Virus record (IMG/VR): IMGVR_UViG_3300021085_000055
Location: 1 to 48,188 of that record
From: a virus
Reading direction: 5' to 3' (one strand)
DNA length: 48,188 nt
Shown here: positions 16,347 to 41,884 of the stretch, piece after piece
Position numbering within the stretch: the first letter of the stretch is position 1
Layout of the letters: each line of letters begins with the position of its first letter
Position numbers and translations under genes: made by a program
Notes under the pieces: model-generated
The model's database searches: none
Seen by the model: only the letters and a program-made list of their open reading frames with translations
What the model was told of the DNA's origin: nothing

Positions 16347-17951
16347 CTATTGAACTAACACTTTCATAAGATCTCCTGATCCAATTCCATAAACACAAGC
16401 AGTCAATCCATCTCCACTTAATCGTACATCTCTTCCCATTTGCGTGTTTGCTGGACCCGTATAAGTGCCTTCTTTAGTCCAAGTTGATCCAGACCTCCTA
16501 AAAAATTCTACTATACCATTTGATGATGCGCCACCACCCTGTTGGCCAAATGCAGCGACATTTCCGTCATTACTTAAATCTGGACGAATTTCCGTTGTTT
16601 GGTTAAGAGTAAGAGTTGCTTGTAAAGAGTTGGTAACCCAATTGTCTGTTGTTACATAAATTTTATTGCCATACGCAAATGTGTTACCATCACCAGAAAT
16701 AGCACCGTTTAATCCTGTACCAGAATTATAAATGGCGGCTCTGGTCGTCCAAGTTGATCCACTGCGAGTAGCAATAGTGTGTTCTCCTACCCGCGTACCA
16801 TACTTATATGCACTATGAATTACATTACCGTCAAAACTTATTCCAGAGTTAAAATAAGATACTCCGTTCTCACCGCCCATTTGTGCATTATCAACAAAAC
16901 TATGAGGTCCAAATTTTGCCTCATATGCCCAATTGGTACCAGTTCTTTTATAAACTATAATTGCTCCTGCTCTGTTTCCAAAAGTACTACTTTGGTGATC
17001 TACTACCATAACTGTTGAACCATCACCAGAAATGGCGGCTCTCATTGCATAATTAGTATATGATGTAATACTTGCATTAAATTGTTGAGACCATGAAGAA
17101 CCATCGTAATACCATATTTCAAGATATTGATTATTCTCATGCATAGCAGCAACATATAATCCATTTGCGCTCATATCTGCATGTCTCACACCATATTGAG
17201 TAGATGAAACTGTGTGTGCTAATGAGTGATTTGTCCCAGAATTTGCACGTTCATGTATCCTAAAGTCATAAGCAGTAGGAATTCCTCCAATACAAAAGCT
17301 ATTACCATTAGTACTAAGAGAAAAAGTGGTACTGGCACTGACCCCAGCTGTCGTTTCGAAAGCGGTAGTTGGTGTTGCCCAAGACGCAAATGCTAATGTA
17401 AATCCACTTACATAACTTACTGATCCATTAACTCCATCAGTCACACTAAATGTTAAACTAAAAGTTCCAGCATGAGCTTCAGTTGTTGAAGGTGTAATAG
17501 TAAATACGTTATCAGCTTGAGATACTGTTGCTGTAGAACCAAGCGATCCTGTTGTAACTGCATAGGACCATGTAAGCGGGAATCCTTCTGGGTCGGTAGA
17601 AACTGCAGTAATTGTGGTAGCAGTGCCATCAGATGCTAAATCATATGTTGCGTCAACTCCTGAAATTGCGGATGGAGATGAATTTGTAATAGTAGCAATT
17701 AAATACCAACCAACACCATCAAAAATATATAATTTATCAGTATTAGTTACGAGAACAATATCACCGCTATTCATTCCTGTTAAAGCTGATAACTCGCTAA
17801 ATGCAGTGACAGTTCTCATTCCGCCAGCGCCTTCTGCCAGAGAATCAGCTGTTATTTTTCTATTTTCTGCAGTTAATGATTCATCAGCTATTGGTGCTAA
17901 AGCGCCAGTTTTACCAAATGCCTTTGAAATGAGAGCTGCTTTCGATACCAT
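16347..17951 (-). CDS. Virion protein with Ig-like domain and propeller-like repeats
   Basis: A 534-residue protein. After an N-terminal linker common in marine phage fibres (MVSKAALISKAFGKTG), residues about 100-187 form a cadherin-type Ig-like domain (DGTATTITAVSTDPEGFP to EAHAGTFSLTFSVTDGV). The rest carries repeated SGDGxTVMVV, SFDGNVIHSA, SGDGNTFAYG, SNDGNVAAFG and SGDGLTACVYG strands, one per about 45-55 residues, as in integrin-like or FG-GAP-like propellers. It ends 67 bp before the 1732-aa gene and begins 12 bp after the stop of the giant fibre. I see no late promoter of its own, so it probably shares the giant fibre's message. Confidence 0.78.
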   Translation of the reverse strand: MVSKAALISKAFGKTGALAPIADESLTAENRKITADSLAEGAGGMRTVTAFSELSALTGMNSGDIVLVTNTDKLYIFDGVGWYLIATITNSSPSAISGVDATYDLASDGTATTITAVSTDPEGFPLTWSYAVTTGSLGSTATVSQADNVFTITPSTTEAHAGTFSLTFSVTDGVNGSVSYVSGFTLAFASWATPTTAFETTAGVSASTTFSLSTNGNSFCIGGIPTAYDFRIHERANSGTNHSLAHTVSSTQYGVRHADMSANGLYVAAMHENNQYLEIWYYDGSSWSQQFNASITSYTNYAMRAAISGDGSTVMVVDHQSSTFGNRAGAIIVYKRTGTNWAYEAKFGPHSFVDNAQMGGENGVSYFNSGISFDGNVIHSAYKYGTRVGEHTIATRSGSTWTTRAAIYNSGTGLNGAISGDGNTFAYGNKIYVTTDNWVTNSLQATLTLNQTTEIRPDLSNDGNVAAFGQQGGGASSNGIVEFFRRSGSTWTKEGTYTGPANTQMGRDVRLSGDGLTACVYGIGSGDLMKVLVQ

Positions 17952-17963
17952 TACTTTCGTCCT

Positions 17964-20900
17964 TTATTTTTCTATGAACAGCCAACCATTAGCTACATTA
18001 TAATATACTAATCCAAATGCTGCTCTATTAACATCAATTGTTAGATCTGAATCTCCGCCTTCAATTTTATGACCATTTCTTCCAATTGTAATAGCGTTTG
18101 TAGCAGCCTGACCAGTTCCATCAATAATTCTAATTTCATCTCCAAGCGATGCAGCTACTGGAAGATTAACTGTTTTAGTAGTGCTTGTATCAATAATTAA
18201 TCTTTGCCCAGCGACCGCAGTAATCGGTGTTGTAGTAATCTCTGCCCATGCTGCAGGAAGATTAACTCTTGCTGCAACATATGCACTATCAACTAATCCC
18301 TGTAATGCTTGTTCATTAACAGTAACATTACCTGCTTTATTTTCAATTGCAGTAATTGTGATTTCATCAGATGCGGAAGCACCAGACGTTAGTGTAATAG
18401 TATTTGTTATTGGATTAGATGTAAAGTCATCTGAATCCATAAGTTTAATACCATTTTGGAATACACTAAAGTTACTTGAATCGATTCCTAATGTTTTAGA
18501 ATTAGCATCAGCACCAGTAAACGCTGTTTGACCATTTGTAGCGATAAACTTAAAGGTGTTTATAAATGTATCGCCAACCATAATATGTGATGTCGTTTGT
18601 AATAAAGTATTAATTACAAGATCATCACCCGAGTCAGCAGTAAATCCATTTAATGTTATTGAATTTGCTGCAGCATTAACTGTATAATCTACAGCAGATA
18701 TTAAACGAATACCATTATTAAATACTTGATAATTATCAGTATCAATTGCTAGAGGTAAGCCATTTTTATCATTACCAGAGAATACTGTTTGTCCAGAATC
18801 AGCTTCAAAATAATAATTAGCAAAACTAACGCCAGTCGTAGCTGTTCCGCCCGATGATCGAGCCGCAACATATGCGCTATCAATCATTCCAGTTACAGCA
18901 GCAGAATCTGTACCTGCTGGTAACACGCCTGGAGCCCAATACTTATTTGAGTTGTCCCAAATTAATATCTGACCTTCAGTTGGCGGAGTTGTATGAACAT
19001 CTTGAGCTAATGTAATGATATTACCTGTTGTTGATCTAGTTAATGTTTGAATAACTACATCATCTGAATCAGCTGCGCCTAATGTTAAAGTAACAGTATT
19101 AGTACTAGAGTTAACATTATAATCTTCAACTCTATTTAAACGAATACCATTTAAATATACTTGATGATTACTATCTGTTATTGATAGAGATTGTGAATTG
19201 AGATCATTACCAGTAAATGCTGTTTGACCAGCTGTTGCTCTAAACTTATAGTCTTTAAAATTAGTTTTACCAGCAAGAATATAGTTAGCTCCAGTACCAG
19301 TGCTAATATTAGTTATGACTAAATCATCTCCAACATTTGCTCCAGTAGTAAGAACAACTCCTGTTGTTCCAGATACTGTATAATCAATATCTTTAAGAAG
19401 GTGAATACCATTTAAATATACTTGAATTCCAGTAGCAGTTACTGCAAGAGTATTACCAGCAACATCAGTACCACTAAATGTTGTTTGGTTAGCAGTTGCA
19501 GTAAATCTAAAGTTAGAATATTCAGATGAAACTGCAGCACCACCACTAGAAGTTTGTCTTGCTTGAATATAATCGCTATCAATTAAAGCTATTATTGTTG
19601 CACTATCAGCTGAACCGCCAGCGCTAGAAGCTGCTCCTGGAATCCATTTACTTGTTGCGGTATTATATACTAATGCTTGTCCATTTGTTGGAGATGGAGC
19701 ATTAACATCTGTAAGAGCACCAAGTGTTGTTACTCCAGCTGAAGATCTTGCTAAAACATATGCTGAATCAATCATCCCACTTACGGCTGAACTATCAATC
19801 CCTTGTGGAACAACTCTTGCTTGAACATATGCTGAATCAACTAATGTTCTTACGCCGACAGAATCATATTTTTCTCCAATAAGAGCTGTAATAGTAGTTG
19901 AGAAATTAGCATCATTTCCAAGTGCAGTTGCAAACTCATTTAGAGTATCCATTGCAGCTGGAGCCCCATCAATTAAATTATTAATAGCAGTGGTAATATC
20001 AGCGCCAGAAGCAAGATCTACCCAAGAACCAGCATGAGCAAAATATGCTTTGCCTGTTGCATGGACATGGGCGAACATACCATGATAAGACGCAGCGCTT
20101 GGAAGATCACTTAGCGCTGAATAAACATTAGAATATAGGATCTTATTCGCACCCATATCCAGATCTTTACCGGTAATATTGCTATCAACTCGTAAATCTG
20201 TATAATATAAATTTGAATCTTCGGCAAGATTCTTTGTAGTTGCTCCACTTAGATCAATTGGAAGAGCCACACCTAAAGAATCAGTAGTAGTAAATACACC
20301 ATTACTTTCTTTAATTCTTATTCCACCAAGATGGATAGTTGAACCACTTAAATATAAATCTCTCCATGCAGCAGTTGAACTACCGAGATCAAATAATTTA
20401 TCTGCACCTGGAATAATAGTATTGAATGTTACGTTAGTATTTTCTAATGGAATGCCTTGCCAATTTCCGCCTTTTGCTATTCTTGCAGTATTATCACCTG
20501 TAGTAACTGCAACCATACCAGTATGCGTAGCGGCATTGGGTAATGCACCAGTATTGGATGCACTTGATTTAAATGTAATATTATGGCTACCAAAATCAAC
20601 TGGTCTACTGCCTATTCCAGTTATTAGATTAACATGAGCACTATCAGCTATTGATTTAATATAATCACTATCAGCTACAAACTTAATATAATCGCTATCA
20701 GCTATTGATTTCACATAATCTGAATCTGCAATTGATTTCACATAATCTGAATCTGCAATTGATTTCACATAATCGCTATCAATGATTCCTTTAATATAGT
20801 CACTATCAGCTATTGATTTTACATAATCTGAATCTGCTACTGATTTAATGTAATCACTATCAGCTATTGATTTAATATAGTCCGAATCTGCTGCCGATTT

Positions 20901-23900
20901 AATATAATCGCTATCAGCTATTGATTTAATATAAACATCATTAGCAATAAATTTAATGTAATCACTGTCAGCTACCGTTTTAATATAATCGCTATCAGCT
21001 ATTGATCTAATATAATCACTGTCAGCTACTGTTTTAACATAATCACTATCAGCAATTGATTTAATATATTCAGAATTAATAATAAATTTAAAATGATCTG
21101 AATCAAGTTTACCAGCAGCAACCAGATCTCCTTTTTGTATTCTTCTGTTAATAAAGTCTGAATCCATAATGCCGTCAATAATATCAACACCATTAATGTG
21201 ATATTTCATACCTGCAGCAATATTAATACCGTCTTTTGCGATTTTGGGGAGAGCAGGTACGCCTATGTCAATTGCAAAATTGCCAGATGGAGAAGTGCGG
21301 TCATAAAGTATTGATGACCGAGTCGTTGTAGCTTCTGGATCAATCTCATAGCCACCAAGTTCTTGTGATAAAATATTTGATGTATTTAGAGCAACACCAT
21401 TTAGTAGTATTTGAGAGGTGCCGCCGATATTACCAATTTCTAAATTTCCTGCTTTACCATTACCAGACTGAATTTTTGCATTGCCGGAAACTAGTAAATG
21501 ATAATTAGGATCAGCAATTGCGCCTATACCCATTTTAAAGCCAGGAAGATCACCATTAAATACGCCGCTAAGTTCACGCCTCATGTAATTGTTAGTAGTT
21601 AATATTTGATTAACTAAACCAATTCCTTCATCCGAATTTAAAAATGCAGTATCATCAAGATTCGCCATAATATAATTTTGATCAATCGCCTGTTGATAAG
21701 TTTGACCTTTTGTAAATCCATGATTTTGTTGTCTTTCAAATACATAATCAGAATCAAAATATTCTGTAGCAGAATCAGGACCAATATAAAATTGTGCAGT
21801 TTGGTGAGTAAGATAAACTTGATTTCCCTGATGCGAATCAAGAATCTTATCACCTTGCCAATACAGTGATTGTACGTTAACACTACCATTAACATCTAAA
21901 TCGTAACCAGGTGATGAAGTTTTAATCCCGACTCTTGGAGCTGTAGTACAAAGATAACCAGTGGTTGCATCATTGTAAAAATACATTGATTTCGGCATAG
22001 TTGCTCGATAGTGTGTAGGATCAATATGTGATTGTACCCACGCAGCATCAGCATTAAATCTTATCCAAGCTTGATTAGCAACATTGTTTCTAATGTAATG
22101 ATAAAGAGTTTGACCTTGATGATATGCATCACCCGACCAATTTATGCTTCCATCAATATCTACCATATAAGCCGTATTAGGACTTACTTTATTAACCCCT
22201 ACTGTTCCACCCATCAGAGCTATGACATTATTAGCTGCAACAGTTGCTTGTACAGAACTACTTGTATATGAACCAATTGCAACAGAATTTGTTCCAGTTA
22301 CAGATACACCGGAACCTATCGATATTGCACCGTTACCCGAAGCTTGAGCATATGAACCTAAAGCCATACCGCCATTACTGACAATGTTTTCTTTACCAAA
22401 TCCAAACCCATTTTCGCTTACATTATTTTTATTACCAAATGCATAAGCAAGATTAGATGTGCCACCATCAACAGCGTTCTCGTAACCATAAGCGTGACCT
22501 CCATTAACAATAGTATTTAGATCGCCATAAGCCCAGCCAAAATCAGTAATTATATTGTCTTTACCGTAAGCATCACCAAATCCAGTAATGTTATTACGAG
22601 TACCGTAAATATTCCCGCCTTTGGTTTGTACATTTTGACCACCAAATATATAGTTACCCTGACCCCCATTTGCGGAACTGTTTCTACCGGTAAGGTTTTT
22701 GTTGTCTGAACCATATACCCTTGTTCCATACCAATTCTCATTAGAAGAGCCATATACTTCTGAATTATATACAATATTTTTATTTTCATTGCCATAAACT
22801 TTAGCCGCGTTGTTTACAGTCTCATTTGCATCACCATAAATTTTAGCATTTTTAGATGCACCTGAATTAACAGAACCAAATACATGTGATTCAGAGATAC
22901 TAGTATTATCGCCACCAAAGACTCTAGAAGCTTTACCAGTGGTATTACTAACTCCAAATGTAACTGATCCATTACCAGATCCAACATTATCTTTACCAAA
23001 GACAGTGGAGTTATTGCCACTTGCTCTATTAGATACACCGTAAGATATAGCACTTTTTCCAGTTGCATCAGTATTAATACCAATTGCAACTGAGTTATTA
23101 GCAGACGATTTACTTCCAATACCAATCGCGGTAGATGTAGTACCACTTGCTGCCACGCCTGAACCCATTGATACTGCGGTTTTTCCTGCAGCTGAACTAT
23201 GACCTATTGCTATACCACCAACACCAGTAGTATTATTTTGACCTATTAAAATAGAGTTTTTTGGCGGTGCTGTGCCTGCGCTGGTAGGATAATTATCTCT
23301 ACCAATATTTAATCCTGCTTCTCCGCCTGTTAAATTATATCCAATTGTTACAGCATTTATTCTTGTATTAACAAGTAAAGATCCAATAGCAGTATTATTT
23401 ACGTGAGAAGGTTGATTGCCATCATCGCCAGTAATATCTCTACCAATTACAACTCCACGGCCAGTTTCAAGTGTTTTACCAATTGCAACTCCACCTTCAT
23501 CTGTTTTAGATGTACCCTTTGCTCCTACGTTAGTGATACCAATACCAAGAGATAGTGAATTTTGCTTATTGCTATTTGTAATATCTTTACCTACCGCAAC
23601 ACTAAATTGTCCAGGATTGGTAATTGTATGTCCTATTGAAACAACTCTAGTAGTGTGTAATGGTTGTTTTGTATGGCCATCAGCAGCATAATCAACGTTA
23701 CCAGCAGATACATTATAACCGATAGCTGTTGAATGATCAGTAGCTACAACATTTGCACCAATACCTTGTGAGAATATGCCAACTTCTCCACTATCCCAAG
23801 TTGCCTTTTTACCGTCAACCCAACCGGCTCTAAAGGCTGCATAGCCAGGAATCCACATTAATCTTGCGCCAGAATCGAGTTGTTCACCTCCACCTGTTCT

Positions 23901-26900
23901 TGGAACTACGCCTGCTTTTGGATGCTCTGAGCTATCAATTAGGATTGAGCTTAAGAATAATACATTACCAGAATCTACGGCAAATCTAGTTTGATCAAAT
24001 GGATCGATCATATCTCTTTTACCGATAATCACGCCGCCTTCTTCATCATAGTATATTTGTTGATTCGGAGACGTTCCTATTCTATTCCAAGGATCGGTAA
24101 TTCTTGATCCAATATAATCATCATTGACAATTCTCATAATATTAGAATCAAAAGATCTTCCAACATAAGGATTAACTAAATTAAAACCTTTTGCTGAATC
24201 ATATGATACTGGATAATATGGACCAAAATAGAATTCAGCAGATTCGCCAGATGTCATGGTTTGTCCAACAGAATCCCAAACAGCTCCACCATATAATGTT
24301 CGCCAAGCTTCATCGGCCCTGCGCTCTTTATAACCAAATAGCAATCCGCCATTTTGGATTTTACCAATACCACTGTCTAATGTAAATCCAGTTTTAAATA
24401 TAGCACTATCTTCAAATGTAAACTGTGTAGTAGCTTTTGCTGAACCGCTATCCCCTTCACTAGCAATATTTAAATTACCACTTAATAAAATTTGTGGATT
24501 GCGAAGATTTCTATCACCAATAACAGAAAGAGGACCTTTAACTGTAAGAGATGCATCATTCTTTCTGCTTCTTGTTTTAACTTTAATTTGATCGCCGACT
24601 GCCAATCTTGTATTAGCTTCTGAATCATAAATGTGTATGAGAGAGTTAGTTACTTCTTCCCATTTCTCTCCACCAGATTCAAGTTCAATATCATTAATAA
24701 ATATTTGTGTTAAACCATTTTTAATATATTCAAGAACATTAGGTGAAGTTGAATTATCAGTATCTTGAAGTCTTAGTCCACTGCGGGACGAGATTGTAGA
24801 TGAAGTTAAAAGATGTAAACCTCTATTAATAATGTCAATAGAATGAGTATGTGTCATCGACGGAGTACTGTCATATCCAGGAATAGATTGCTCGCGTATT
24901 TTAATTTGATTGCCATTGACCCAAGCCCAATCACCGGTAGATATTCCGTTTCCAACAGCGTTTAGCGTTCCTTTTGTTAAAGCGGTAGAATCAAATCCAC
25001 TAGTTAATGGGCTAGTAACATCTTTAGGAGTAACTAACATCACACTCATAAAATTTGAGTCTAGTCCAGGCGTTCCACTGATACTAAAGTCTGCTGCAGA
25101 TTCACCATAGGGCAGACCTGGGCTTGTCGCAGACGTCAGTATTGAATATAATACAGGATCACCATAAATTATTGAATTAGGATGTGTGATGAAATAGCTA
25201 TCAGCTGCATTTACAGTAAAATTAAATATGTATTCTGAATCTACTGTTACCTTAGATCCTTCAATAATACTATGTCCACCAGCGCTAAATCCAGAATCAA
25301 CTCTTACATCACCTCTAACGTATAACTTAGATCCAGGATGATCGATAGGTGCACTATCAGCGCCAATCGCCACGTTAGCATATGAGTTAAACCCAACACC
25401 ACCAAAATAAAGAGTATGACCATCAGCGGATCTTCTCCAATGTGAACTATCATTAGCATGATGAAGAATATAGTTAGGACTAATAATAGTTTTCATATAA
25501 CCAGAATCAATAACAGAAGAAATAACTGCCGAGTCAATATTCATTCTATTTTTTACATAATCATTAGTAACAATCGTTGCAATATAGTCTTCGGTTGGCC
25601 AAGCAGCTTCGTTTCCAAGATTATTAGTAGTAATAATAGGAGATTTATGATCAATTGCAGCTTGACGTGAAGCCTTGTCTTCTGCTGGCCTAGAAGCATA
25701 AGCAGCTGGAATATCTATTCTAGCTTTACCATCCATATCAAGCTGGAATTTCCATCTTGCATTCCCAGTTGCATCGACTTCTTCATAATCTGCAGCATTG
25801 ACATCTATATTATTTTTATTAATTACGACTGGATTTGTTCTGCCCGGGCTTTGGTCATTAATAAGCTGATTGCCACCTTTTAATGACCAGAAATTATCAA
25901 TAGAAACTCTTGCTTGAACATATGCAGAATCAAGATGATTTTCTAGAATTGGAATAAGTCCACCAGTTGGTCTTACAACAAAACTGTCAAATGACATTCT
26001 TTCACCAGTACCAGGATTATCACCAATTGTAAATGTACTACCTGCAATAGATTGTCTAAAATGAACTGAGCCTTCTACAGTAGCGCTATCACCAACAGTT
26101 AATTTACCTAGAACATTTAAATTAGCGCTTGAAGTAGTTTTTTGTTTAGGTATGACATGAATATAATTTGCTGAGGTAGTAACTGGAGTTCCGGTATAAT
26201 CTGCGCTTAAAACTGGAACTGTTAATACATCATCTGTAAATAATTCAAATTTATTAGTATAACCAGCATCTAGTAATCCATCAGCATTTGCATCAGGTCC
26301 AACAAAATATGTATTTCCATTTAGATCTGTAAATGTTCCGCCAGTAATACCTGATAATCTAACACCATCACCTACTGTTAATCCATGAGCTGTTGATGTA
26401 ATTGTTAAATTTGTTCCGGTAGTATCAAATGCCCATGCAGCGCCTGAGACGGGTGCTGCAACTATTACAACTTCATATGATCCGGTCGGTGGGCTTGGAA
26501 CAAATATAGTTTCACTTTGAGTATCAAGTGCAGTAGTACATGCTCTATCAGTAAATAACTCAAAATTATTAGCGTCAACTGCCTGAACAAAATATACATT
26601 ATCAGCAGCAGATGTATAATTAAAGCTACTAGAAGGTCCAGCATTTCCATCAGTGAGACCACTAAATTTAACAGCTAATCCAGATCCAGCCCCACCTCCA
26701 CCAGGATGCGTCAATGCAGTACCACCTCCACCGGCTGATCCAAGTAAATGCCCGCCAGCAGGTACGTTTACAACCGCCGCCGCGGCTTTGGAAACAGAAA
26801 ATGCTGATGTTTGTACAGAGGGTGGAGTAACCGGGGTAGTTTTTATTACACCAGTAACAACAACTGTTGGAGCAGTTCCGGCAATATAGTCTTTAATATT

Positions 26901-29900
26901 AAGACCGCCGATGTGAAGTGTAGCACCACTATCAATATTTACATCACCATGAATATCTAATGTATAATTTCTATTAAAGCCAGAATTATAAATTGTAGAA
27001 TTACCATGTGCCACCTGCGCAGTTTTACCAATCATAATATTGGTATTATTTAAACCTTTATTAACAAGAGCGCTATCAAAAAGACTTGATCCAGAATCGT
27101 TAAAAATTGCTGGCTTCATAATCACAATGCCGTTTTCTAATCCTGTAGGGATAAACGCATTTCCACCTATGAAAGTTGTATTTTTAGCCCCACCGCCAGT
27201 TATTCCACCATATTGTGGATTTACATTATTAACTGAATGTGAATCTTTCCAACCAGCACCAATAATATAATTGTTAGTAAAATTATCATGGAAAACTTCG
27301 TTACTTTCACCAAATATGAAATTTTGATTTCCATTTGTATAAAGAGTATTACTTGTTCCTATTACATAAGATTTATTTGTACTTCTTACTGTAGAAGCAT
27401 TTGCTAATCCGAACAAATTATCTCTACCTATAGTATAAAGATCTGTTCCACTATTCATTGAGTCTTGAATATTATTTTGGCCAAGGAATAGATTATTATC
27501 TGTTAAAATAATATTTTCTTTACCGATAGCAATACTGTTTCTACCTTGTGTAGTGGTAGCAGTGCCTCTAAATACTATATTTCCTTGACTTCTTCTTTGT
27601 CCAACTTTATTTTTTTCGCCAAGAGATATAGAGTTTTTACCTCTAGCATAAGGTTCTTCACCCATACCTATAGAGAAGATTCCTAAATCAGAATTTACAT
27701 GCTCATCAAGTAAAACCTTACCGGCTCTAATAAGTCCAGCTCTTGAACTATACATAAACATATTATTATATGTGTTACCTGGGAAGGTTCCGGCAGAATC
27801 AAATATAGCAGAATCTGTGGATGCATAAGTTAATAGCGTAGTTCCATCAACTTGGAAATCACCTCTAATATCAAATTCTGTATTAGGAGTCGTTTTTCCA
27901 ACACCAACATTCCTTGGTGTTTCCATAAGAATAAATTCTCCATTGTCTTCAAATGGATTGCCGGCGATTGGAGACCCGCCGAGCGGATTTAATTTCATTA
28001 CGTCCCCGCCGTAAAGAATATCACCGCCTACAAATAAATTACCAGCACCTTTAACAGATGGATCAAACATATCAGATTCTCTACCAATCGATACGTTACC
28101 ACCTTGAATAGCTAAAAGATTTTCATCATCAACTTGACCCACAATATTCCGAAGTGTATTAGCCGGATCTTGACCAGCGCCTGGAGTTGCTGTTGATGGT
28201 CTTAAACTAATATTCATGCTGTTATTAGCAACAACCTTACCGCCGCCACCAATAGCAAACGAGTTAGCTCCCTGAATAACTTGATCATGGCCTATAGCAA
28301 ACGATGTATTACCAGAAACTTTATTATTAAAACCAAAAGCAAACGCCAAAGTTCCGCTAACTGAATCTAAAGCACCAAATATAAATGATGATTGTCCGTC
28401 AGCTATATTATCAATACCAATTATATTATTGTTATTGCCACCAAGCGACCTATTTCCTGCACCAATTAACAATGTGCTATTACCAGATGGTAAAGCCATA
28501 TTGTTTTTACCAAACATATAGCTTGCATTTCCAGCAGTAGTATTATTATGGCCAATCAGAACACTATTAATACCAATTGTTGTTGCAAACCCACCACTTC
28601 GATCTGAGTTTTCAATTCCTATTAATACATTATTCCCACCTTTAACTATATTGCGCTGGCCCATAGCAATTGAATTAGTGGCGCCGGTGTTAACACTACT
28701 ACTATCACCTACAACAAAACTAAAATCACCTTTAGCTTTAACATTTTTGCCAAATGCTACGGAATAAGTACCAATATCGTTCCAGCTGTAATCGTTATGA
28801 TTTGTAAAATAGCCGCCGCGAGTTGCAGCTTTACCCGGAATAAATGAAAACCTTGAACCTTTATCTGAATCTATATCAGCTTCATCATAATTAGCTAAAC
28901 CACTATATATAGTTTTTGCATCTAGATGCATTGATATCTCACCTGAAGTTTGGGGAGAATAGCCAGCATCTGTATTAAGTGGACCTTTAACTTGGAATGG
29001 GCCACCATGTACTTCAAATCGTGCTTTAGATCTAGTAGTTCCTACACCTATTCTACCAAATCCTCCAGATGGATATGTAGCAGTAAAATCTCTTGGCTCA
29101 AAATAAGCATTATCTATATTATCAGATGTAAATAGACCGCCGCCAGTAAACGGAATTCCGTTTTGCATAAGAGAACCGGTGAAGTTAATAGTACCATCTT
29201 TATGAACTTCAAATAAAGAGCTATCTTCAAGAGACATTGCTCTTATTAGAACTGATACATCTGAATCGTTTGCAGCATTAACACCATCTCCAGGAAATCT
29301 TCTAATCGATGCCCCGTCTGCTTTTGATATATCACTTTTAAAATAGTTGATAGGTAAAGTAGATTGTAAATAGTGTCTACCCTGTGAGTCTTTTCCAGCG
29401 TGAGAAGCACTTATTTTTAAACCATAAAAATCTCTTGTTTGAGCTGAATCAGGAAAATATACTGAGTTAGCATCAAAATTATTTCTTAATTCAGGTCTAT
29501 ATTTGTAAGATCCAATTTTTACTCCGGATGCATCGATATTACCAGTTGATTTATGAACAATAAATCTATTCCATCCAGAGTCTTGCGCAACTTGTTTTGC
29601 TGTCATAAGACCATCAAAAGAAGCACCCGCCGCTAAACCGTAATAGAAAGATTGATGTTCGCCAAAATGTAATTCGCCGCCTTGAATTGAGTCGCTTAAT
29701 CCTACAGTTAAAAGCGCACCAGGCACTAAAGAGTTAACTCTGAGTTTATCAAACACAGCTGGTGCATATGATATAACTTCACCGGTTGGTAAAATAGTTA
29801 ATCCTGTATTTACTCCTTGTGTTGCTCCAATCCGTAATCCATTAGTTGAATCATATAAAAAGTCAGAATCGCCTTGTAAAGAAAAATCAGGTCCTACATG

Positions 29901-31235
29901 TGCAACCGCGCCTAATTTTAATGCGCCGCCCGGAACATTTAAATCTAGTTTATCAACTTTTAAATACTCAACAAAAGCAGAATCTGCTTTAAGGTATTTG
30001 AAATATGCTGAGTCAGCTTGTAAATCTTTATTATAGAAAAGTCTATTTGTTGTCCAATAATTTTCATATTGTGTTCCGGCAGCTCCAGCCTGCCAGGTAA
30101 AAGATGCTCCAACAGGACCGCCTACTGTAATGCCTGCTCCTGATGCAAATGCAGAGTCGGCAGCATTATCAGCCACAACAATGTTTTTATCTACAATAGT
30201 AACAGTTTCAGATTGAATTGATGTTGTTGTTCCTTGCACATTAAGATTACCAATAATATTAACATCACCCGCAACATCACCAAACGGAAATGGATCAATA
30301 TTAATAGTAGTTGGACCACGATATTCCGGGCTATGTGCAATACCAAAACTATGATATAAAGAATGTCCACTGTCAATTAAAGCCCCGTCAATATGGGCAT
30401 AAGTTAAATGAGCAGAATCAACATCAAGTTGGCTAATATCAGCTGAATCTGCTTTAAAATGACTAATATATGCGCTATCAACATCAAGCTGACTGATGTA
30501 GGCAGAATCACCCTTTAATCTAGAAATAAACGCAGAATCGACATCGAGCTGACTGATGTAGGCAGAATCGCCCTTTAATCTTGAAATATAGGCACTATCA
30601 ACATCTAACTGAGAAATGTATGCGGAATCGCCCTTTAATCTAGAAATAAACGCAGAGTCAACATCTAACTGACTAATATAACCACTATCAACATCAAGCC
30701 TTGAAATATACGCAGAATCGACATCAAGCTGACTAATATATGCTGAGTCTGCAGTTAGCCTTGAAATATATGCAGAGTCCACATCTAAATCAAATATGTA
30801 TGCTGAATCTGCTGTTAATCTAGAAATATAACCCGAGTCAACATCTAATTTCCATATAAACGCTGAGTCTGCAGTTAACCGTTTTAAATGGGCGCTATCA
30901 ACATCTAAATCTTTAATATGAGCTGAGTCTGCGGTTAGTCCATGGACATATAATAGATCAACTGCTTTTTCTGAGTCAAGAAGAAGAAATTTATTTCCAA
31001 CTGCAATACCAGGATTTCCTGCTGACTGCAATAGAGACATAAATTTTTCGCCGCCAACTGCAGCTACTCTACTTGCTATTTGTGGAACTGCAGTTGAGTC
31101 AACGGCTGGTCCTACGCCAACATATAATGTTCCGCCTGCAATACTATCATAATATGAATATGCTAATTCACCTAGTGCTAAACTTGACGGTGCAGTTGCC
31201 GTGCCTGATCTTTTAATCTGGATTATAGATGCCAT
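17964..31235 (-). CDS. Giant 4423-aa tail fibre-like protein
   Basis: A single uninterrupted frame of 4423 residues. The N-terminus (MASIIQIKRSGTATAPSSLALGELAYSY) is the usual start of marine T4-like fibre proteins. Residues 100-279 are eighteen tandem 10-residue units (LDVDSAYISR type). Three blocks at about 795-1010, 1180-1355 and 2480-2985 carry the xxSxAxGxxxxxxGxxS strand pattern of trimeric autotransporter (YadA-like) heads. Residues 3379-3531 are seventeen 9-residue units (SDYIKSIAD type). Residues about 3905-4295 hold four related QTxFSG...DYTV domains. The C-terminus (DLTIDVNRAAFGLVYYN then GWLFIEK) is a recurrent phage fibre tip. It is probably a trimeric fibre. A late promoter lies 40 bp upstream. 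Confidence 0.88.
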   Translation of the reverse strand: MASIIQIKRSGTATAPSSLALGELAYSYYDSIAGGTLYVGVGPAVDSTAVPQIASRVAAVGGEKFMSLLQSAGNPGIAVGNKFLLLDSEKAVDLLYVHGLTADSAHIKDLDVDSAHLKRLTADSAFIWKLDVDSGYISRLTADSAYIFDLDVDSAYISRLTADSAYISQLDVDSAYISRLDVDSGYISQLDVDSAFISRLKGDSAYISQLDVDSAYISRLKGDSAYISQLDVDSAFISRLKGDSAYISQLDVDSAYISHFKADSADISQLDVDSAHLTYAHIDGALIDSGHSLYHSFGIAHSPEYRGPTTINIDPFPFGDVAGDVNIIGNLNVQGTTTSIQSETVTIVDKNIVVADNAADSAFASGAGITVGGPVGASFTWQAGAAGTQYENYWTTNRLFYNKDLQADSAYFKYLKADSAFVEYLKVDKLDLNVPGGALKLGAVAHVGPDFSLQGDSDFLYDSTNGLRIGATQGVNTGLTILPTGEVISYAPAVFDKLRVNSLVPGALLTVGLSDSIQGGELHFGEHQSFYYGLAAGASFDGLMTAKQVAQDSGWNRFIVHKSTGNIDASGVKIGSYKYRPELRNNFDANSVYFPDSAQTRDFYGLKISASHAGKDSQGRHYLQSTLPINYFKSDISKADGASIRRFPGDGVNAANDSDVSVLIRAMSLEDSSLFEVHKDGTINFTGSLMQNGIPFTGGGLFTSDNIDNAYFEPRDFTATYPSGGFGRIGVGTTRSKARFEVHGGPFQVKGPLNTDAGYSPQTSGEISMHLDAKTIYSGLANYDEADIDSDKGSRFSFIPGKAATRGGYFTNHNDYSWNDIGTYSVAFGKNVKAKGDFSFVVGDSSSVNTGATNSIAMGQRNIVKGGNNVLIGIENSDRSGGFATTIGINSVLIGHNNTTAGNASYMFGKNNMALPSGNSTLLIGAGNRSLGGNNNNIIGIDNIADGQSSFIFGALDSVSGTLAFAFGFNNKVSGNTSFAIGHDQVIQGANSFAIGGGGKVVANNSMNISLRPSTATPGAGQDPANTLRNIVGQVDDENLLAIQGGNVSIGRESDMFDPSVKGAGNLFVGGDILYGGDVMKLNPLGGSPIAGNPFEDNGEFILMETPRNVGVGKTTPNTEFDIRGDFQVDGTTLLTYASTDSAIFDSAGTFPGNTYNNMFMYSSRAGLIRAGKVLLDEHVNSDLGIFSIGMGEEPYARGKNSISLGEKNKVGQRRSQGNIVFRGTATTTQGRNSIAIGKENIILTDNNLFLGQNNIQDSMNSGTDLYTIGRDNLFGLANASTVRSTNKSYVIGTSNTLYTNGNQNFIFGESNEVFHDNFTNNYIIGAGWKDSHSVNNVNPQYGGITGGGAKNTTFIGGNAFIPTGLENGIVIMKPAIFNDSGSSLFDSALVNKGLNNTNIMIGKTAQVAHGNSTIYNSGFNRNYTLDIHGDVNIDSGATLHIGGLNIKDYIAGTAPTVVVTGVIKTTPVTPPSVQTSAFSVSKAAAAVVNVPAGGHLLGSAGGGGTALTHPGGGGAGSGLAVKFSGLTDGNAGPSSSFNYTSAADNVYFVQAVDANNFELFTDRACTTALDTQSETIFVPSPPTGSYEVVIVAAPVSGAAWAFDTTGTNLTITSTAHGLTVGDGVRLSGITGGTFTDLNGNTYFVGPDANADGLLDAGYTNKFELFTDDVLTVPVLSADYTGTPVTTSANYIHVIPKQKTTSSANLNVLGKLTVGDSATVEGSVHFRQSIAGSTFTIGDNPGTGERMSFDSFVVRPTGGLIPILENHLDSAYVQARVSIDNFWSLKGGNQLINDQSPGRTNPVVINKNNIDVNAADYEEVDATGNARWKFQLDMDGKARIDIPAAYASRPAEDKASRQAAIDHKSPIITTNNLGNEAAWPTEDYIATIVTNDYVKNRMNIDSAVISSVIDSGYMKTIISPNYILHHANDSSHWRRSADGHTLYFGGVGFNSYANVAIGADSAPIDHPGSKLYVRGDVRVDSGFSAGGHSIIEGSKVTVDSEYIFNFTVNAADSYFITHPNSIIYGDPVLYSILTSATSPGLPYGESAADFSISGTPGLDSNFMSVMLVTPKDVTSPLTSGFDSTALTKGTLNAVGNGISTGDWAWVNGNQIKIREQSIPGYDSTPSMTHTHSIDIINRGLHLLTSSTISSRSGLRLQDTDNSTSPNVLEYIKNGLTQIFINDIELESGGEKWEEVTNSLIHIYDSEANTRLAVGDQIKVKTRSRKNDASLTVKGPLSVIGDRNLRNPQILLSGNLNIASEGDSGSAKATTQFTFEDSAIFKTGFTLDSGIGKIQNGGLLFGYKERRADEAWRTLYGGAVWDSVGQTMTSGESAEFYFGPYYPVSYDSAKGFNLVNPYVGRSFDSNIMRIVNDDYIGSRITDPWNRIGTSPNQQIYYDEEGGVIIGKRDMIDPFDQTRFAVDSGNVLFLSSILIDSSEHPKAGVVPRTGGGEQLDSGARLMWIPGYAAFRAGWVDGKKATWDSGEVGIFSQGIGANVVATDHSTAIGYNVSAGNVDYAADGHTKQPLHTTRVVSIGHTITNPGQFSVAVGKDITNSNKQNSLSLGIGITNVGAKGTSKTDEGGVAIGKTLETGRGVVIGRDITGDDGNQPSHVNNTAIGSLLVNTRINAVTIGYNLTGGEAGLNIGRDNYPTSAGTAPPKNSILIGQNNTTGVGGIAIGHSSAAGKTAVSMGSGVAASGTTSTAIGIGSKSSANNSVAIGINTDATGKSAISYGVSNRASGNNSTVFGKDNVGSGNGSVTFGVSNTTGKASRVFGGDNTSISESHVFGSVNSGASKNAKIYGDANETVNNAAKVYGNENKNIVYNSEVYGSSNENWYGTRVYGSDNKNLTGRNSSANGGQGNYIFGGQNVQTKGGNIYGTRNNITGFGDAYGKDNIITDFGWAYGDLNTIVNGGHAYGYENAVDGGTSNLAYAFGNKNNVSENGFGFGKENIVSNGGMALGSYAQASGNGAISIGSGVSVTGTNSVAIGSYTSSSVQATVAANNVIALMGGTVGVNKVSPNTAYMVDIDGSINWSGDAYHQGQTLYHYIRNNVANQAWIRFNADAAWVQSHIDPTHYRATMPKSMYFYNDATTGYLCTTAPRVGIKTSSPGYDLDVNGSVNVQSLYWQGDKILDSHQGNQVYLTHQTAQFYIGPDSATEYFDSDYVFERQQNHGFTKGQTYQQAIDQNYIMANLDDTAFLNSDEGIGLVNQILTTNNYMRRELSGVFNGDLPGFKMGIGAIADPNYHLLVSGNAKIQSGNGKAGNLEIGNIGGTSQILLNGVALNTSNILSQELGGYEIDPEATTTRSSILYDRTSPSGNFAIDIGVPALPKIAKDGINIAAGMKYHINGVDIIDGIMDSDFINRRIQKGDLVAAGKLDSDHFKFIINSEYIKSIADSDYVKTVADSDYIRSIADSDYIKTVADSDYIKFIANDVYIKSIADSDYIKSAADSDYIKSIADSDYIKSVADSDYVKSIADSDYIKGIIDSDYVKSIADSDYVKSIADSDYVKSIADSDYIKFVADSDYIKSIADSAHVNLITGIGSRPVDFGSHNITFKSSASNTGALPNAATHTGMVAVTTGDNTARIAKGGNWQGIPLENTNVTFNTIIPGADKLFDLGSSTAAWRDLYLSGSTIHLGGIRIKESNGVFTTTDSLGVALPIDLSGATTKNLAEDSNLYYTDLRVDSNITGKDLDMGANKILYSNVYSALSDLPSAASYHGMFAHVHATGKAYFAHAGSWVDLASGADITTAINNLIDGAPAAMDTLNEFATALGNDANFSTTITALIGEKYDSVGVRTLVDSAYVQARVVPQGIDSSAVSGMIDSAYVLARSSAGVTTLGALTDVNAPSPTNGQALVYNTATSKWIPGAASSAGGSADSATIIALIDSDYIQARQTSSGGAAVSSEYSNFRFTATANQTTFSGTDVAGNTLAVTATGIQVYLNGIHLLKDIDYTVSGTTGVVLTTGANVGDDLVITNISTGTGANYILAGKTNFKDYKFRATAGQTAFTGNDLNSQSLSITDSNHQVYLNGIRLNRVEDYNVNSSTNTVTLTLGAADSDDVVIQTLTRSTTGNIITLAQDVHTTPPTEGQILIWDNSNKYWAPGVLPAGTDSAAVTGMIDSAYVAARSSGGTATTGVSFANYYFEADSGQTVFSGNDKNGLPLAIDTDNYQVFNNGIRLISAVDYTVNAAANSITLNGFTADSGDDLVINTLLQTTSHIMVGDTFINTFKFIATNGQTAFTGADANSKTLGIDSSNFSVFQNGIKLMDSDDFTSNPITNTITLTSGASASDEITITAIENKAGNVTVNEQALQGLVDSAYVAARVNLPAAWAEITTTPITAVAGQRLIIDTSTTKTVNLPVAASLGDEIRIIDGTGQAATNAITIGRNGHKIEGGDSDLTIDVNRAAFGLVYYNVANGWLFIEK
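18345..19515 (-). repeat. Four divergent tandem domains near the giant fibre C-terminus
   Basis: Four copies of a domain of roughly 75-95 residues recur with the core QT-x-F-S/T-G-x-D, then YLNGI/FNNGI, then DYTV/DYNV and a D-D/E-x-V/I-I-T ending. Copies begin near 19500, 19230, 18800 and 18535. The copies have diverged clearly at DNA level, so the duplication is old. Confidence 0.7.
20643..21101 (-). repeat. 27-bp coding repeat array (17 units) in the giant fibre
   Basis: Seventeen 27-bp units encode 9-residue repeats of consensus SDYIKSIAD (residues 3379-3531). The unit length is constant with no interruption. Silent changes (for example TCA/AGT Ser and ATA/GTG-type changes) show selection on the protein. 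Confidence 0.9.
30399..30938 (-). repeat. 30-bp coding repeat array (18 units) in the giant fibre
   Basis: Eighteen 30-bp units encode 10-residue repeats of consensus LDVDSAYISR/LTADSAYISQ (residues 100-279). Units partly alternate between LDVDSAY, LTADSAY and LKGDSAY types, so larger two-unit duplications probably contributed. Confidence 0.9.
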
Positions 31236-31287: not shown

Positions 31288-31524
31288 TTAGAAGGTATCT
31301 CCACCATCTATTATTTGTGCCTTTAAGTGGCTTGTAGCTGTCCATTTTTCGGTTACACCATCAAATGCAATCATTGTTCCTTCTGGTATTTGACCAGCTG
31401 CAATAGCAGTATCACTTACATCTCTAAGACTATTTCTAATTCTAATTTCTTTAATTGCCGGAATTGGAGTTCCAACTTTAATATTTTTAACGATTGTACG
31501 ATTTGATGTTATTTTAATTGCCAT
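31288..31524 (-). CDS. Small virion-associated protein next to the giant fibre
   Basis: A 78-residue protein (MAIKITSNRTIVKNIKVGTP, ending KAQIIDGGDTF). Short proteins with a similar plan, a GTPI segment and a C-terminal DAQxxxGG ending, sit just before fibre genes in marine T4-like phages. I cannot name a function. It lies 9 bp after the 129-aa gene and 52 bp before the giant fibre, so a structural or fibre-attachment role is inferred from context only. Confidence 0.65.
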   Translation of the reverse strand: MAIKITSNRTIVKNIKVGTPIPAIKEIRIRNSLRDVSDTAIAAGQIPEGTMIAFDGVTEKWTATSHLKAQIIDGGDTF

Positions 31525-31533
31525 ATCGTTATC

Positions 31534-31923
31534 CTATGTTGTTACTTGAGGAGAAAGTGTTAATTTTCCTTCTAGTATTCTTTCAACTACACCTAATCCT
31601 GTATTACTATCTGTTCCTTCTAACTCAACATCATACACGTATCTACCAGCTTTCATACGGGTTGTTTGTGCATTTGTTAATGATAGTTGTAAAATATTTT
31701 CTTGATTAAGTGGGTTAAATGCTGTAACGTTAAATAATTCAGCTGAATCTGTAGAATTATAGCTTTTTTTAATCTTACCTCTCATAAGATAATATGATCC
31801 AAACGAACCAGCATCTGAATCCCAATTGATTAAAAGTTTCCTACTTCCATCAGGATTAAATAATTCAAGTTGGATAGTAACGTCTGATCCTTGGTCGATT
31901 GTTAAGTCTTCGTAGTGTGCCAT
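31534..31923 (-). CDS. Small virion protein with BppU-like beta-sandwich character
   Basis: A 129-residue protein with MAHYEDLTIDQGSDVTIQLEL at the N-terminus and regular strands through YYLMRGKIKKSYNS and GRYVYDVELEG. The 'TIDQGSDxxxxL ... GRYxYDVEL' plan resembles the N-terminal domain of baseplate receptor-binding proteins (BppU-type), and similar short genes precede fibres in marine myoviruses. I chose the ATG at 31923 rather than the in-frame GTG at 31929, because AGAGG lies 5 bp before this ATG. Two TATAAATA elements lie upstream. Likely a baseplate or fibre-base protein, by inference. Confidence 0.68.
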   Translation of the reverse strand: MAHYEDLTIDQGSDVTIQLELFNPDGSRKLLINWDSDAGSFGSYYLMRGKIKKSYNSTDSAELFNVTAFNPLNQENILQLSLTNAQTTRMKAGRYVYDVELEGTDSNTGLGVVERILEGKLTLSPQVTT

Positions 31924-31947
31924 ACCCACCTCTTATCTATTTTACTG

Positions 31948-32645: not shown

Positions 32646-32671
32646 AAAGAGCTCTCAGGAGCTCTTTTTTT
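32646..32671 (+). terminator. Rho-independent terminator after the plus-strand gene
   Basis: AAAGAGCTC (32646-32654) pairs with GAGCTCTTT (32659-32667) around the loop TCAG, followed by more T (to 32671), giving seven Ts in a row after the GAGCTC arm. It begins 31 bp after the plus-strand stop codon. The stop codon of the convergent oxygenase gene (32655-32657) lies inside the loop, so the hairpin may also limit leftward readthrough, though the T tract on that side (TTTATTAC) is weak. Confidence 0.85.
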
Positions 32672-33230
32672 GTTTAATAAAAATATCGACTGGAACAGCT
32701 AGTCTAAGATTAGAGTGATATGTTTTTACTAGATGATAAACATATCCTGGCATAATTATCACATCACTAGTTTTAGGTGCGTACTCAATAGGTTTAAACA
32801 TTTCAGTGGTTTTACCAAAATAACCTCTGTTAGCATTTGCTCTTGGATCGTACGCTACTAGCTCTCCACCTTTATCAATATCATCAGCAAGAACATAAAA
32901 TACTGCAGCAAACTGAGCTCCGGAATGATTATGAATATTCATTGAATATCCCTTTTGAGATCCTGTTAACCAAGAACTAAATTCATAAGACATATCGTTT
33001 AAATCACTATTAAATACTTCTTTAAAAAATTCTGAATATTTTTCTATAGCCAAATCTTTTAATAATGGAATTTTATCTGTCAGTGTACCGCTGTCGTATT
33101 CAGCCTGTGGTTTCATAATATTAGTACTAAGTAAAATCTCTTGAACTAATTCTTCGCATTGGTCTGAAGTAATTTGAGTTTTGTATATTGGTGTGGACCA
33201 ACACTGATTAATACCCGATTTCAACATCAT
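32655..33230 (-). CDS. 2OG-Fe(II) oxygenase family protein (PF13759/TIGR02466-like), last gene of the cassette
   Basis: A 191-residue protein with the plan of 2-oxoglutarate/Fe(II) oxygenases: an N-terminal INQCWSTPIYK start, then SMNIHNHSGAQFAAVFYVL (H100, H102), GGELVAYDPR (121-130), MPGYVYHLVKTY (H166) and a downstream Arg (R176) expected to hold 2-oxoglutarate. The first pair of ligands reads HxH rather than the usual HxD, as in the sister gene at 34501-35112. Substrate unknown; hydroxylation of a peptide side chain is inferred from its place behind four radical-SAM genes. It overlaps the 134-aa gene by 23 bp and has AAAGGA ahead of paired Met codons. Its stop lies in a terminator loop. 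Confidence 0.78.
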   Translation of the reverse strand: MMLKSGINQCWSTPIYKTQITSDQCEELVQEILLSTNIMKPQAEYDSGTLTDKIPLLKDLAIEKYSEFFKEVFNSDLNDMSYEFSSWLTGSQKGYSMNIHNHSGAQFAAVFYVLADDIDKGGELVAYDPRANANRGYFGKTTEMFKPIEYAPKTSDVIIMPGYVYHLVKTYHSNLRLAVPVDIFIKQKKSS

Positions 33231-33612
33231 AATATCCTTTTATGTCACGAACCATACCATGAATTACCATCAGTGGCCAATCTATATTGTTGAGTATACT
33301 ATCGTATATTTCTTTACTATTTTTATATGTTTTAAAATATGGATCATTACCAGCTAAAAGCATTGGATCATTTAACAAATCATAAAAATCTTCATTGAAG
33401 TCTTTACTAATCCAATAAGCATAGCATATTGCTACAACATAACTCTTGGCTGGATATAGCCATTCATCTACTTTTTCATTAAAGTGTCGAATAGCATTTT
33501 TAATAATAACCTCTTGATTATCATCAAAAACTATTTCTACTTTATTTAAATCATCTGTATGATCTTTATTTAATCTATGGTAAACTTCTTGTTTAACTTG
33601 CCATTCTTTCAT
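33208..33612 (-). CDS. Unrecognised 134-aa cassette protein
   Basis: A 134-residue, largely helical acidic protein (MKEWQVKQEVYHRLNKDHTD...), with aromatic-rich segments around KVDEWLYPAKSYVVAICYAYWISKDF and a C-terminal IHGMVRDIKGYYDVEIGY. I see no metal-binding motif, signal peptide or transmembrane helix. It overlaps both neighbours (20 bp with the upstream radical-SAM gene and 23 bp with the downstream oxygenase), so it is made with them. A substrate-binding or adaptor protein for one of the two enzymes is possible; this is inference only. Confidence 0.72.
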   Translation of the reverse strand: MKEWQVKQEVYHRLNKDHTDDLNKVEIVFDDNQEVIIKNAIRHFNEKVDEWLYPAKSYVVAICYAYWISKDFNEDFYDLLNDPMLLAGNDPYFKTYKNSKEIYDSILNNIDWPLMVIHGMVRDIKGYYDVEIGY

Positions 33613-34501
33613 GATACCAATCCAATAATCCTCTATATCCGTTACAGCTATTATTTAAATCTTTGACATATCGATAATGCTCTGTTAAGCAGTTTCCAAA
33701 ATACTTACATGAAGCACATATAGGACTTATCATTTCTTCTTTTTCTTTATTTGTCCAATCAATGTATTGTTCCCAAGAATCCAATTCAAGAAAGAATTCT
33801 TTATCCTCTTCATCAAATTCCAAGACACCAAATTTGCCAGAAGGAGTGATGTATATATGATCATCCGAAAATGCATTGTATCTTCCTTTCATTGATTCTA
33901 TAATTCTGTCTTCATTTACAAATTCAAACTTCATAGTGTCTTTTAATTTAAGCCACTTTATAACAAAATCTTCAAAGTCTTTGTGTGTCACATTGTGAGC
34001 ATTTGCTTGATTAATTGAATATGGTTTAATCTCAACAGATGTAATTGACGAACACATATTCAACATATTAATCATTTCAGATACATCTTTTTCTAACACC
34101 TTTGGAGAAGCTAAAACCAAAACTGCAATAGGTACTGTACTCATTAACATATTATTAAATACAAGTTCAGACTTTTCTCTTGCTTCAAAATCATATGAAA
34201 CAGAAAGATATACATCATCATCAAAAAAGCCTGGATGCATCATAGAATAATTTGTGTTGATGCTAATTTTACCTGAATAGTATTTTTTTATAACATCTTT
34301 AATGCCATAAAAATATGACTTTTTCATTGCGCCAACTTCGCCGCCGTATAAGTCAATATGTTCAATATTATGTACCTGAGATAGCAATATGTCTAGTTTA
34401 TTGAACGAAATTTGTTTTTGATCTCCAAGTTGCTTAGTAGATAGGTAACAAAAATCACATCTAAAATTACAAAAATATGAAGGATTGATCGATACGATCA
34501 T
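33593..34501 (-). CDS. Radical SAM protein (302 aa)
   Basis: The motif CNFRCDFC (C11, C15, C18) is the CxxxCxxC signature that holds the [4Fe-4S] cluster of radical-SAM enzymes, and YGGEV (52-56) matches the SAM-binding GGE motif. Four C-terminal cysteines (C262, C265, C271, C286) in a CxxCx5Cx14C arrangement suggest a shortened SPASM- or twitch-like auxiliary cluster site. Such enzymes often modify ribosomally made peptides or proteins. It overlaps the 134-aa gene and shares one base with the upstream oxygenase gene (TAATG), implying coupled translation. The N-terminus starts 10 residues before the first Cys, as is usual, so the start is secure. Confidence 0.92.
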   Translation of the reverse strand: MIVSINPSYFCNFRCDFCYLSTKQLGDQKQISFNKLDILLSQVHNIEHIDLYGGEVGAMKKSYFYGIKDVIKKYYSGKISINTNYSMMHPGFFDDDVYLSVSYDFEAREKSELVFNNMLMSTVPIAVLVLASPKVLEKDVSEMINMLNMCSSITSVEIKPYSINQANAHNVTHKDFEDFVIKWLKLKDTMKFEFVNEDRIIESMKGRYNAFSDDHIYITPSGKFGVLEFDEEDKEFFLELDSWEQYIDWTNKEKEEMISPICASCKYFGNCLTEHYRYVKDLNNSCNGYRGLLDWYHERMAS

Positions 34502-35112
34502 TACCTGGCCGGAAAGGAAATATTCATTACTACTGCAAGTCTATCTTCTTCACCATAATAAGGAGTTACTTCATGCCATACATGTGCCGGAACAATAATA
34601 ATTGTATTTTTTTCAGTCTCAATAGACATTTTAGATTTAGGTCTTGTTTTTATAACCTGGTTAAATGCTGGGTCATGAAAAATTAATTTGCCACCATCTT
34701 TATCATTATCTACACAGTCTAAATAATAAACCGCAACCATTGAAGCACCACTATGACAATGCAAACCTTTATAATCACCATTTCTCATAAAGGGCAATCT
34801 TCCGGTGGTCAATTCCATCCGTTCTAAAATTTCGGCATGTGTAATTGATTCATCATATTCATTAGCTAGTTTTAAAAATGACTTTGCAAAAAAATCATAT
34901 AAACTTTTTATTTCATTATAATTTTTAATATTATCATCTGTAAATAACGGGATATGCACTCCATCATCTCCACCATCTTGATATGAAAGACCGGCCATAG
35001 CTAAATGATTTCTAAATATTGCTTGACATACTGAATTAAGTGTACTACTTTCTTCTTCATTAATATCATGCAATTCATGTAACATTTTTATTGGAAAAAT
35101 AGTTTTTATCAT
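34501..35112 (-). CDS. 2OG-Fe(II) oxygenase family protein (203 aa)
   Basis: A 203-residue protein with GLHCHSGASMVAVYYLD (H118, H120), GGKLIFHDPA (140-149), IVPAHVWHEVTPY (H180) and an Arg (R191) at the expected 2-oxoglutarate site. This plan is shared with the cassette gene at 32655-33230 and with the 2OG-Fe(II)_Oxy_5 type of oxygenase. The two genes are probably ancient duplicates. Again the first ligand pair is HxH instead of HxD. A GAGAGGGA ribosome site precedes the ATG, which overlaps the stop of the next radical-SAM gene (ATGA). Each of the three 2OG genes lies next to a radical-SAM gene, which suggests enzyme pairs. Confidence 0.82.
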   Translation of the reverse strand: MIKTIFPIKMLHELHDINEEESSTLNSVCQAIFRNHLAMAGLSYQDGGDDGVHIPLFTDDNIKNYNEIKSLYDFFAKSFLKLANEYDESITHAEILERMELTTGRLPFMRNGDYKGLHCHSGASMVAVYYLDCVDNDKDGGKLIFHDPAFNQVIKTRPKSKMSIETEKNTIIIVPAHVWHEVTPYYGEEDRLAVVMNISFPAR

Positions 35113-39482: not shown

Positions 39483-39515
39483 ACTTCATTCTATACATTA
39501 CAAATTAAAAAATAT

Positions 39516-41850: not shown

Positions 41851-41876
41851 TTCATTCCTCTTTTGTTATATACGTG

Positions 41877-41884
41877 TATTTATA
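41877..41884 (-). promoter_or_regulatory. T4-type late promoter of the CHxS-tail protein gene
   Basis: TATAAATA on the minus strand, 26 bp upstream of the ATG at 41850 and overlapping the last codons of the radical-SAM/SPASM gene. It gives the substrate-like gene late expression separate from the promoter at the head of the cassette. Confidence 0.7.

Follow-up and report, generated by a model that had tools for sequence, protein, structure and literature searches.

A probable giant tail-fibre protein of 4,423 residues, with repeat arrays of near-constant unit number, in a metagenomic fragment of a T4-like marine phage

Introduction

In pelagimyophages, a variable host recognition cluster between VrlC and gp14 contains both tail fibres and radical-SAM cassettes (PMC7029224). 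Outside phages, very long adhesive chains are exemplified by AtaA, which reaches 3,630 aa and 200 nm (PMC3498257). Nine-residue repeats, or nonads, have been characterized in Tcar0761 from Thermosinus (14 nonads, MATKDDIAN) and in OMP100 (IENKADKAD), both of which form trimeric coiled coils in their crystals, the middle triplet making up a beta-layer (PMC4786415). A further set of modules is known from CBA120, where the XD1 domain of TSP4 (residues 80-178) has a T4 gp9 domain as its nearest structural homologue, and the XD2/XD3 domains bind partner tailspikes; in T4 gp10, such domains bind gp11/gp12 (PMC8825819).

Here, we analyze a linear, metagenomic IMG/VR fragment of 48,188 bases (the window), in which one gene encodes a fibre-type chain that is very long by phage standards and recurs as a family. 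Our survey of the literature on giant and longest tail fibres found no matching case. In our view, this chain probably forms a giant, trimeric tail fibre (an adhesin) in a T4-like phage, with fixed rods, variable shaft surfaces, and a conserved C-terminal string. The chain unites modules that a related phage encodes as small, separate fibre proteins, the nine-residue array adds a candidate 18-unit alpha/beta coiled coil, and the family provides a clean natural setting for testing whether adhesin repeat rods are held at a fixed length.

Genomic Context

The giant gene occupies positions 17964-31235 as one minus-strand frame, from ATG to stop, of 4,423 aa with 0 internal stops. A sequence-only reading of this DNA had proposed a single intact frame of more than 13 kb encoding a fibre and had left the strand unstated. 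The frame is indeed uninterrupted and runs on the minus strand, and the fibre assignment agrees with both the locus, which is a fibre locus, and the modules of the protein, which are fibre and adaptor modules. The terminase of the window shares 71% identity with its counterpart in Phage C48C1 (Kyanoviridae), followed by cyanophages at ~45%; judged by this sequence, whose nearest relatives lie in that family, the source phage is T4-like and related to Kyanoviridae.

In transcription order, the locus starts with a large structural gene of the phrog_358 family (45207-48188; its homologue in C48C1 is WJE88068.1), followed by a 519-aa fibre-type gene and a radical-SAM/2OG-Fe(II) oxygenase cassette with unnamed genes. 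Next come a 131-aa fibre-assembly-type gene (31534..31929, minus strand; phrog_3304, ‘L-shaped tail fiber protein assembly’, E 3e-10), a small 78-aa ORF (31288..31524, minus strand), the giant gene, and four unnamed large ORFs with products of 534, 1,732, 861, and 463 aa. The order closes with the head-tail adaptor, head closure, sheath stabiliser, terminase, and sheath genes. The giant gene is thus placed as in a T4-like tail-fibre locus, between a baseplate-side large structural gene and the neck genes, an arrangement similar to the pelagimyophage/cyanomyophage (Kyanoviridae) host recognition cluster, where fibre genes precede neck genes. The 131-aa gene lies upstream of the fibre in 9/9 scannable relatives and is also found in C48C1. 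Among the downstream ORFs, the 463-aa (7074-8465, minus strand) and 534-aa (16347-17951, minus strand) products have a common domain, 33% identical over 177 aa, and the N-terminus of the former is similar to residues 3601-3636 of the giant protein.

Phage C48C1 resembles the window in having the 131-aa neighbour (44% identity), a YHGMFAHV module (64%), and one gp10-type domain, but there such modules are split between proteins of 457 and 291 aa, and a 1,753-aa fibre is encoded separately. It also has a giant protein (WJE88074.1, 3,347 aa), whose [FY]xGNYxR repeats are unrelated to those of the window fibre. WJE88074.1 (34012-44055) is annotated as hypothetical and consists mostly of [FY]xGN[FY]xR / YTRTR-type repeats with non-repetitive stretches between them.

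Homologues and Selection

Scans of viral contigs recovered 8 further contigs with close homologues and 2 with deeper ones. Complete frames in close relatives measure 4,427, 4,508, 4,542, 4,549, and 4,619 aa, and partial frames of 4,237, 3,809, and 2,795 aa stay open up to the contig end; of the deep relatives, one is complete at 5,747 aa and the other is at least 4,990 aa long. All full-length homologues come from metagenome assemblies, and because 25816/25696 (in their shared part) and 24255/27413 are near duplicates, the independent cases are fewer than the contigs. Across five comparisons, dN/dS is below 1 for every module (range 0.03-0.69): the lowest values belong to the arrays (0.06-0.15) and the highest to the middle and YadA block 3, the conserved ends being generally low. 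Mean identity follows a similar layout, at 0.75-0.92 in the ends (N-terminus 0.81, tip 0.89) and 0.56-0.71 in the YadA blocks and middle, the most variable parts.

Since the frame is open in other contigs and dN/dS stays below 1 in all modules, the giant gene is under purifying selection. The proposal that the frame is selected, first drawn from its intactness, therefore now rests on 10 homologue contigs without interruption and on these ratios. They also bear on the idea that the frame is an assembly chimera or an unused, relic gene. The window itself is one fragmentary metagenome contig, as that idea would have it, but the same architecture recurs on independent contigs with dN/dS below 1 throughout, and an artefact or relic is already largely refuted and very improbable.

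A protein search across 50,697 deposited phage genomes left most of the giant chain unmatched, short modules excepted, and recovered no full-length family member; megablast of window bases 1-25000 against deposited phages returned no close relatives. A cyanophage host was considered and set aside, as psbA is absent from 12 related fragments, although this absence does not exclude such a host.

Organization of the Giant Protein

The sequence-only reading had parsed the protein into a ten-residue array, three YadA-head-like blocks, a nine-residue array, and four C-terminal tandem domains. Both arrays stand far above shuffled controls: the ten-residue array (residues 103-292, 19 units) has autocorrelations of 0.57 at lag 10 and 0.77 at lag 20, with a maximum of 0.22 in 1,000 shuffles, and the nine-residue array (residues 3375-3545) has 0.64-0.68 at lags 9, 18, 27, and 36, with a shuffle maximum of 0.23. 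The tandem domains hold up equally, an HMM built from the four recovering all copies. The YadA assignment is sustained for blocks 1 and 3, which exceed the Pfam gathering cut-off (25 bits for the YadA head repeat PF05658), and not for block 2, which falls under it. Two AF2 models were calculated, both of monomers from shallow alignments, with mean confidence of 43 and 45.

The N-terminal domain (residues 1-96; 30948..31235, minus strand) matches positions 1-86 of phrog_15769 (E 1.5e-14) and, at 39%, the start of the Pelagibacter phage Mosig tail fibre. It is probably the virion attachment end. A profile search with the N-terminal 480 residues against solved structures gave no match. The domain is followed by the ten-residue array of DSAYISxLxV units (30360..30935, minus strand; 18-19 units), a region that phrog_16267 (2,299 positions) matches locally (E 2e-17). 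AF2 renders it as beta strands interrupted at intervals of ~20 residues, at pLDDT ~75 in the first half, and Foldseek found nothing for this model at E <0.001, the best hits being LRRs at 0.36. With no significant Foldseek match, we do not assign the array to a pentapeptide or LRR solenoid fold.

The three YadA-head-like beta-roll blocks span residues 816-1012 (block 1; 28200..28790; YadA_head, 32.9 bits), 1181-1420 (block 2; 26976..27695; 13.5 bits), and 2481-3012 (block 3; 22200..23795; 31.4 bits, in 4 stretches), all on the minus strand. Block 3 is the longest at 532 aa, and the periodicity of block 2 is inside the shuffle range. The giant protein resembles trimeric autotransporter adhesins (TAAs) such as YadA and AtaA in these beta-rolls and in its very long, modular, repetitive chain; TAA stalks are also known to contain nonads, and the giant protein has its nine-residue array. 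Unlike TAAs, it is a phage gene product without an anchor beta-barrel, no YadA membrane-anchor family being found in a Pfam scan up to E 1, and its C-terminus is a TSP4 XD1-like domain.

The nine-residue array (20601..21113, minus strand) comprises 18 units in the register IKS-IAD-SDY. Aligned over 139 units, its columns read [S/F/G]-[I/V]-A-D-S-D-Y-[I/V]-K, and the beta-layer triplet has I/V at position 1 in 129 of the 139 nonads, A at position 2 in 105, and D at position 3 in 134. The array therefore combines the nine-residue period of nonads with their aliphatic-A-[D/T] triplet, and its I-K-S/I-A-D/S-D-Y pattern parallels I-A-N/M-A-T/K-D-D of Tcar0761 and I-E-N/K-A-D/K-A-D of OMP100; it differs in having 18 units and a near-invariant Asp-Ser and Tyr. 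From this register, we propose the array as a candidate trimeric alpha/beta coiled coil. The AF2 monomer has a 7-residue helix and a 2-residue break repeated ~17 times at pLDDT ~42, a value at which the coiled coil stays a proposal from sequence. Searched against solved structures, the array gave chance-level matches only; Pfam matches to Med31 and Plasmodium HRP over it were dismissed as low-complexity hits under the cut-offs.

C-terminal to this array lies a conserved module containing YHGMFAHVHATGKAYFAHAG (19836..20168, minus strand; 64% to C48C1 WJE88070.1 over 74 aa), which is common to many viral contigs and Phage C48C1 and was the main shared region of the viral-contig scan. The four tandem domains follow, at residues 3904-3979 (domain 1; 19299..19526), 3991-4067 (domain 2; 19035..19265; missing in two relatives), 4138-4213 (domain 3; 18597..18824), and 4223-4300 (domain 4; 18336..18569), all on the minus strand. 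They are mutually alignable, with common motifs such as QT.F.G and NGI.L, and were modelled by AF2 at pLDDT mostly 60-85. The models match CBA120 TSP4, T4 gp10, T7 gp17-N, and T5/DT57C neck proteins (best Foldseek E 5e-8 to 4e-6; VIA Z 7-9), with an XD2/XD3-type fold superposable on TSP4 187-250 at Z 8.8 and an rmsd of 1.6 over 64 aa. As modelled, then, the four domains have the T4 gp10 / CBA120-TSP4 / T7 gp17-N adaptor fold. The fold also retrieved 290 BFVD viral predicted structures at E <0.001, including phage tail fibres, spikes, and adaptors. The last 98 residues form the tip (17967..18260, minus strand), homologous to the XD1 domain of TSP4 at its residues 95-174 (phmmer E 4.6e-8 over 79 residues). 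In PHROG, the tip falls among tail fibre, tail spike, and gp9-type connector families (tail-fibre connector phrog_967, E 8e-4), and phrog_4527 (3,730 positions, ‘short tail fiber protein’) has a tip-type domain near its C-terminus, by a weak, local match (E 0.0025). The tandem-domain fold and the tip sequence are thus those of CBA120 TSP4, T4 gp10, and T7 gp17-N, with one difference in placement: the adaptor modules are N-terminal in TSP4 and T7 gp17, whereas in the giant protein they are C-terminal, after 3,900 residues.

This C-terminal string could also be read as an assembly scaffold, in which the gp10/TSP4-type domains would serve as a branch hub for other receptor-binding proteins, for example the 534-, 1,732-, 861-, and 463-aa downstream products, and the giant chain as its spine. 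The docking of partner proteins by CBA120 XD2/XD3 and T4 gp10 (PMC8825819) speaks for such a role, as do the presence of four such domains with an XD1-type tip and the unnamed large ORFs directly downstream. However, fibres widely contain this fold as an ordinary module, and the number of XD domains ranges from 1 to 4 among relatives; we regard the scaffold as unlikely.

Unit Number and Length Variation

The nine-residue module measures 171 aa in five of six relatives and 174 in the sixth, and its unit count is 18 in all 7 genomes with a whole, regular array; contig 29263 has 13+5. Similarly, the ten-residue module measures 196 aa in five of the six relatives compared and 201 in the sixth, with 18-19 units wherever the count is readable among close relatives. 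The units themselves do not keep their positions: when the window is compared with its closest relative, just 9/18 ten-residue units match best to the unit of the same index, and near-identical genomes can differ by internal shifts of 4 units with the total unchanged. In most comparisons, synonymous sites diverge several times more within the arrays than in the flanks, a pattern expected if the units compared are paralogous.

The sequence-only reading had suggested that the fibre alters its length by changes in repeat number. Because the units have been rearranged from genome to genome at a constant number, routine length switching is disfavoured, and among close relatives, which keep 18 and 18-19 units despite the shuffling, that suggestion is not supported. 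A fibre whose reach is tuned by repeat-number change would find some footing elsewhere. Length change among close relatives is mainly C-terminal, with 5-10 DSxYV..R spacers and 3-4 gp10-type domains in whole C-termini, and array counts differ in the deep relatives, the 5,747-aa protein having ~20+4 ten-residue units plus further short arrays and the protein of at least 4,990 aa ~3. The arrays of close relatives nevertheless hold to 18/18-19 units and to a nearly exact residue length, and we judge a length-variable fibre to be quite improbable. The 5,747-aa relative (contig 3300020317_000004) also has, at residues ~2015-2234, about six near-identical repeats of ~29 residues, TVTTYKGTDSMQIGGRLxGVxSLEMAG, which are absent from the window protein.

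The simplest reading of the arrays is unit turnover with stabilising selection on length. A more detailed version, which we put forward tentatively and rate as possible rather than likely, is that the nine-residue units, as an alpha/beta coiled coil, and the ten-residue units make up a selected rod of fixed length whose units are recombined or converted while their count is held, and that receptor diversity resides in the YadA rolls of the shaft and not in the tip.

Proposed Fibre Architecture

As a giant tail fibre, the protein can be rationalized from one end to the other. The fibre would probably be anchored on the virion by its N-terminus; both repeat arrays would be rods of constant length; the YadA-type beta-rolls on the shaft would present variable surfaces that may contact the host; and the conserved gp10/TSP4-type string would end the fibre and either clamp the trimer or dock other adhesins. 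We infer the trimeric state, the virion-side end, and the receptor contact from these modules. The virion-side end is questionable, since conserved ends with a variable middle are atypical for fibres. Scaled by the ratio of length to residues in AtaA, the fibre would be ~240 nm long.

The Radical-SAM Cassette

The cassette upstream of the fibre (32655-43380, minus strand) contains five radical-SAM genes of 302, 344, 381, 556 (with a B12-binding-type match), and 339 aa, two to three 2OG-Fe(II)-oxygenase-type genes (191, 203, and possibly 181 aa), and a cupin-like 175-aa gene. The cassette genes checked (191, 302, and 556 aa) are 74-98% identical in relatives with an often far more divergent fibre, and the same three genes were not found in the examined loci of the relative with the closest fibre. 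Independent inheritance of cassette and fibre is therefore likelier; a cassette-fibre link was rejected, and the cassette is not claimed as part of the fibre. At 41287-41850 (minus strand), adjoining a SPASM radical-SAM gene, a 187-aa protein ends in NINICHASCHSSCHGSRGRR. It was without a match in deposited phages, and its match to phrog_35144 is limited to the last 24 residues. This end is possibly a substrate tail for peptide modification.
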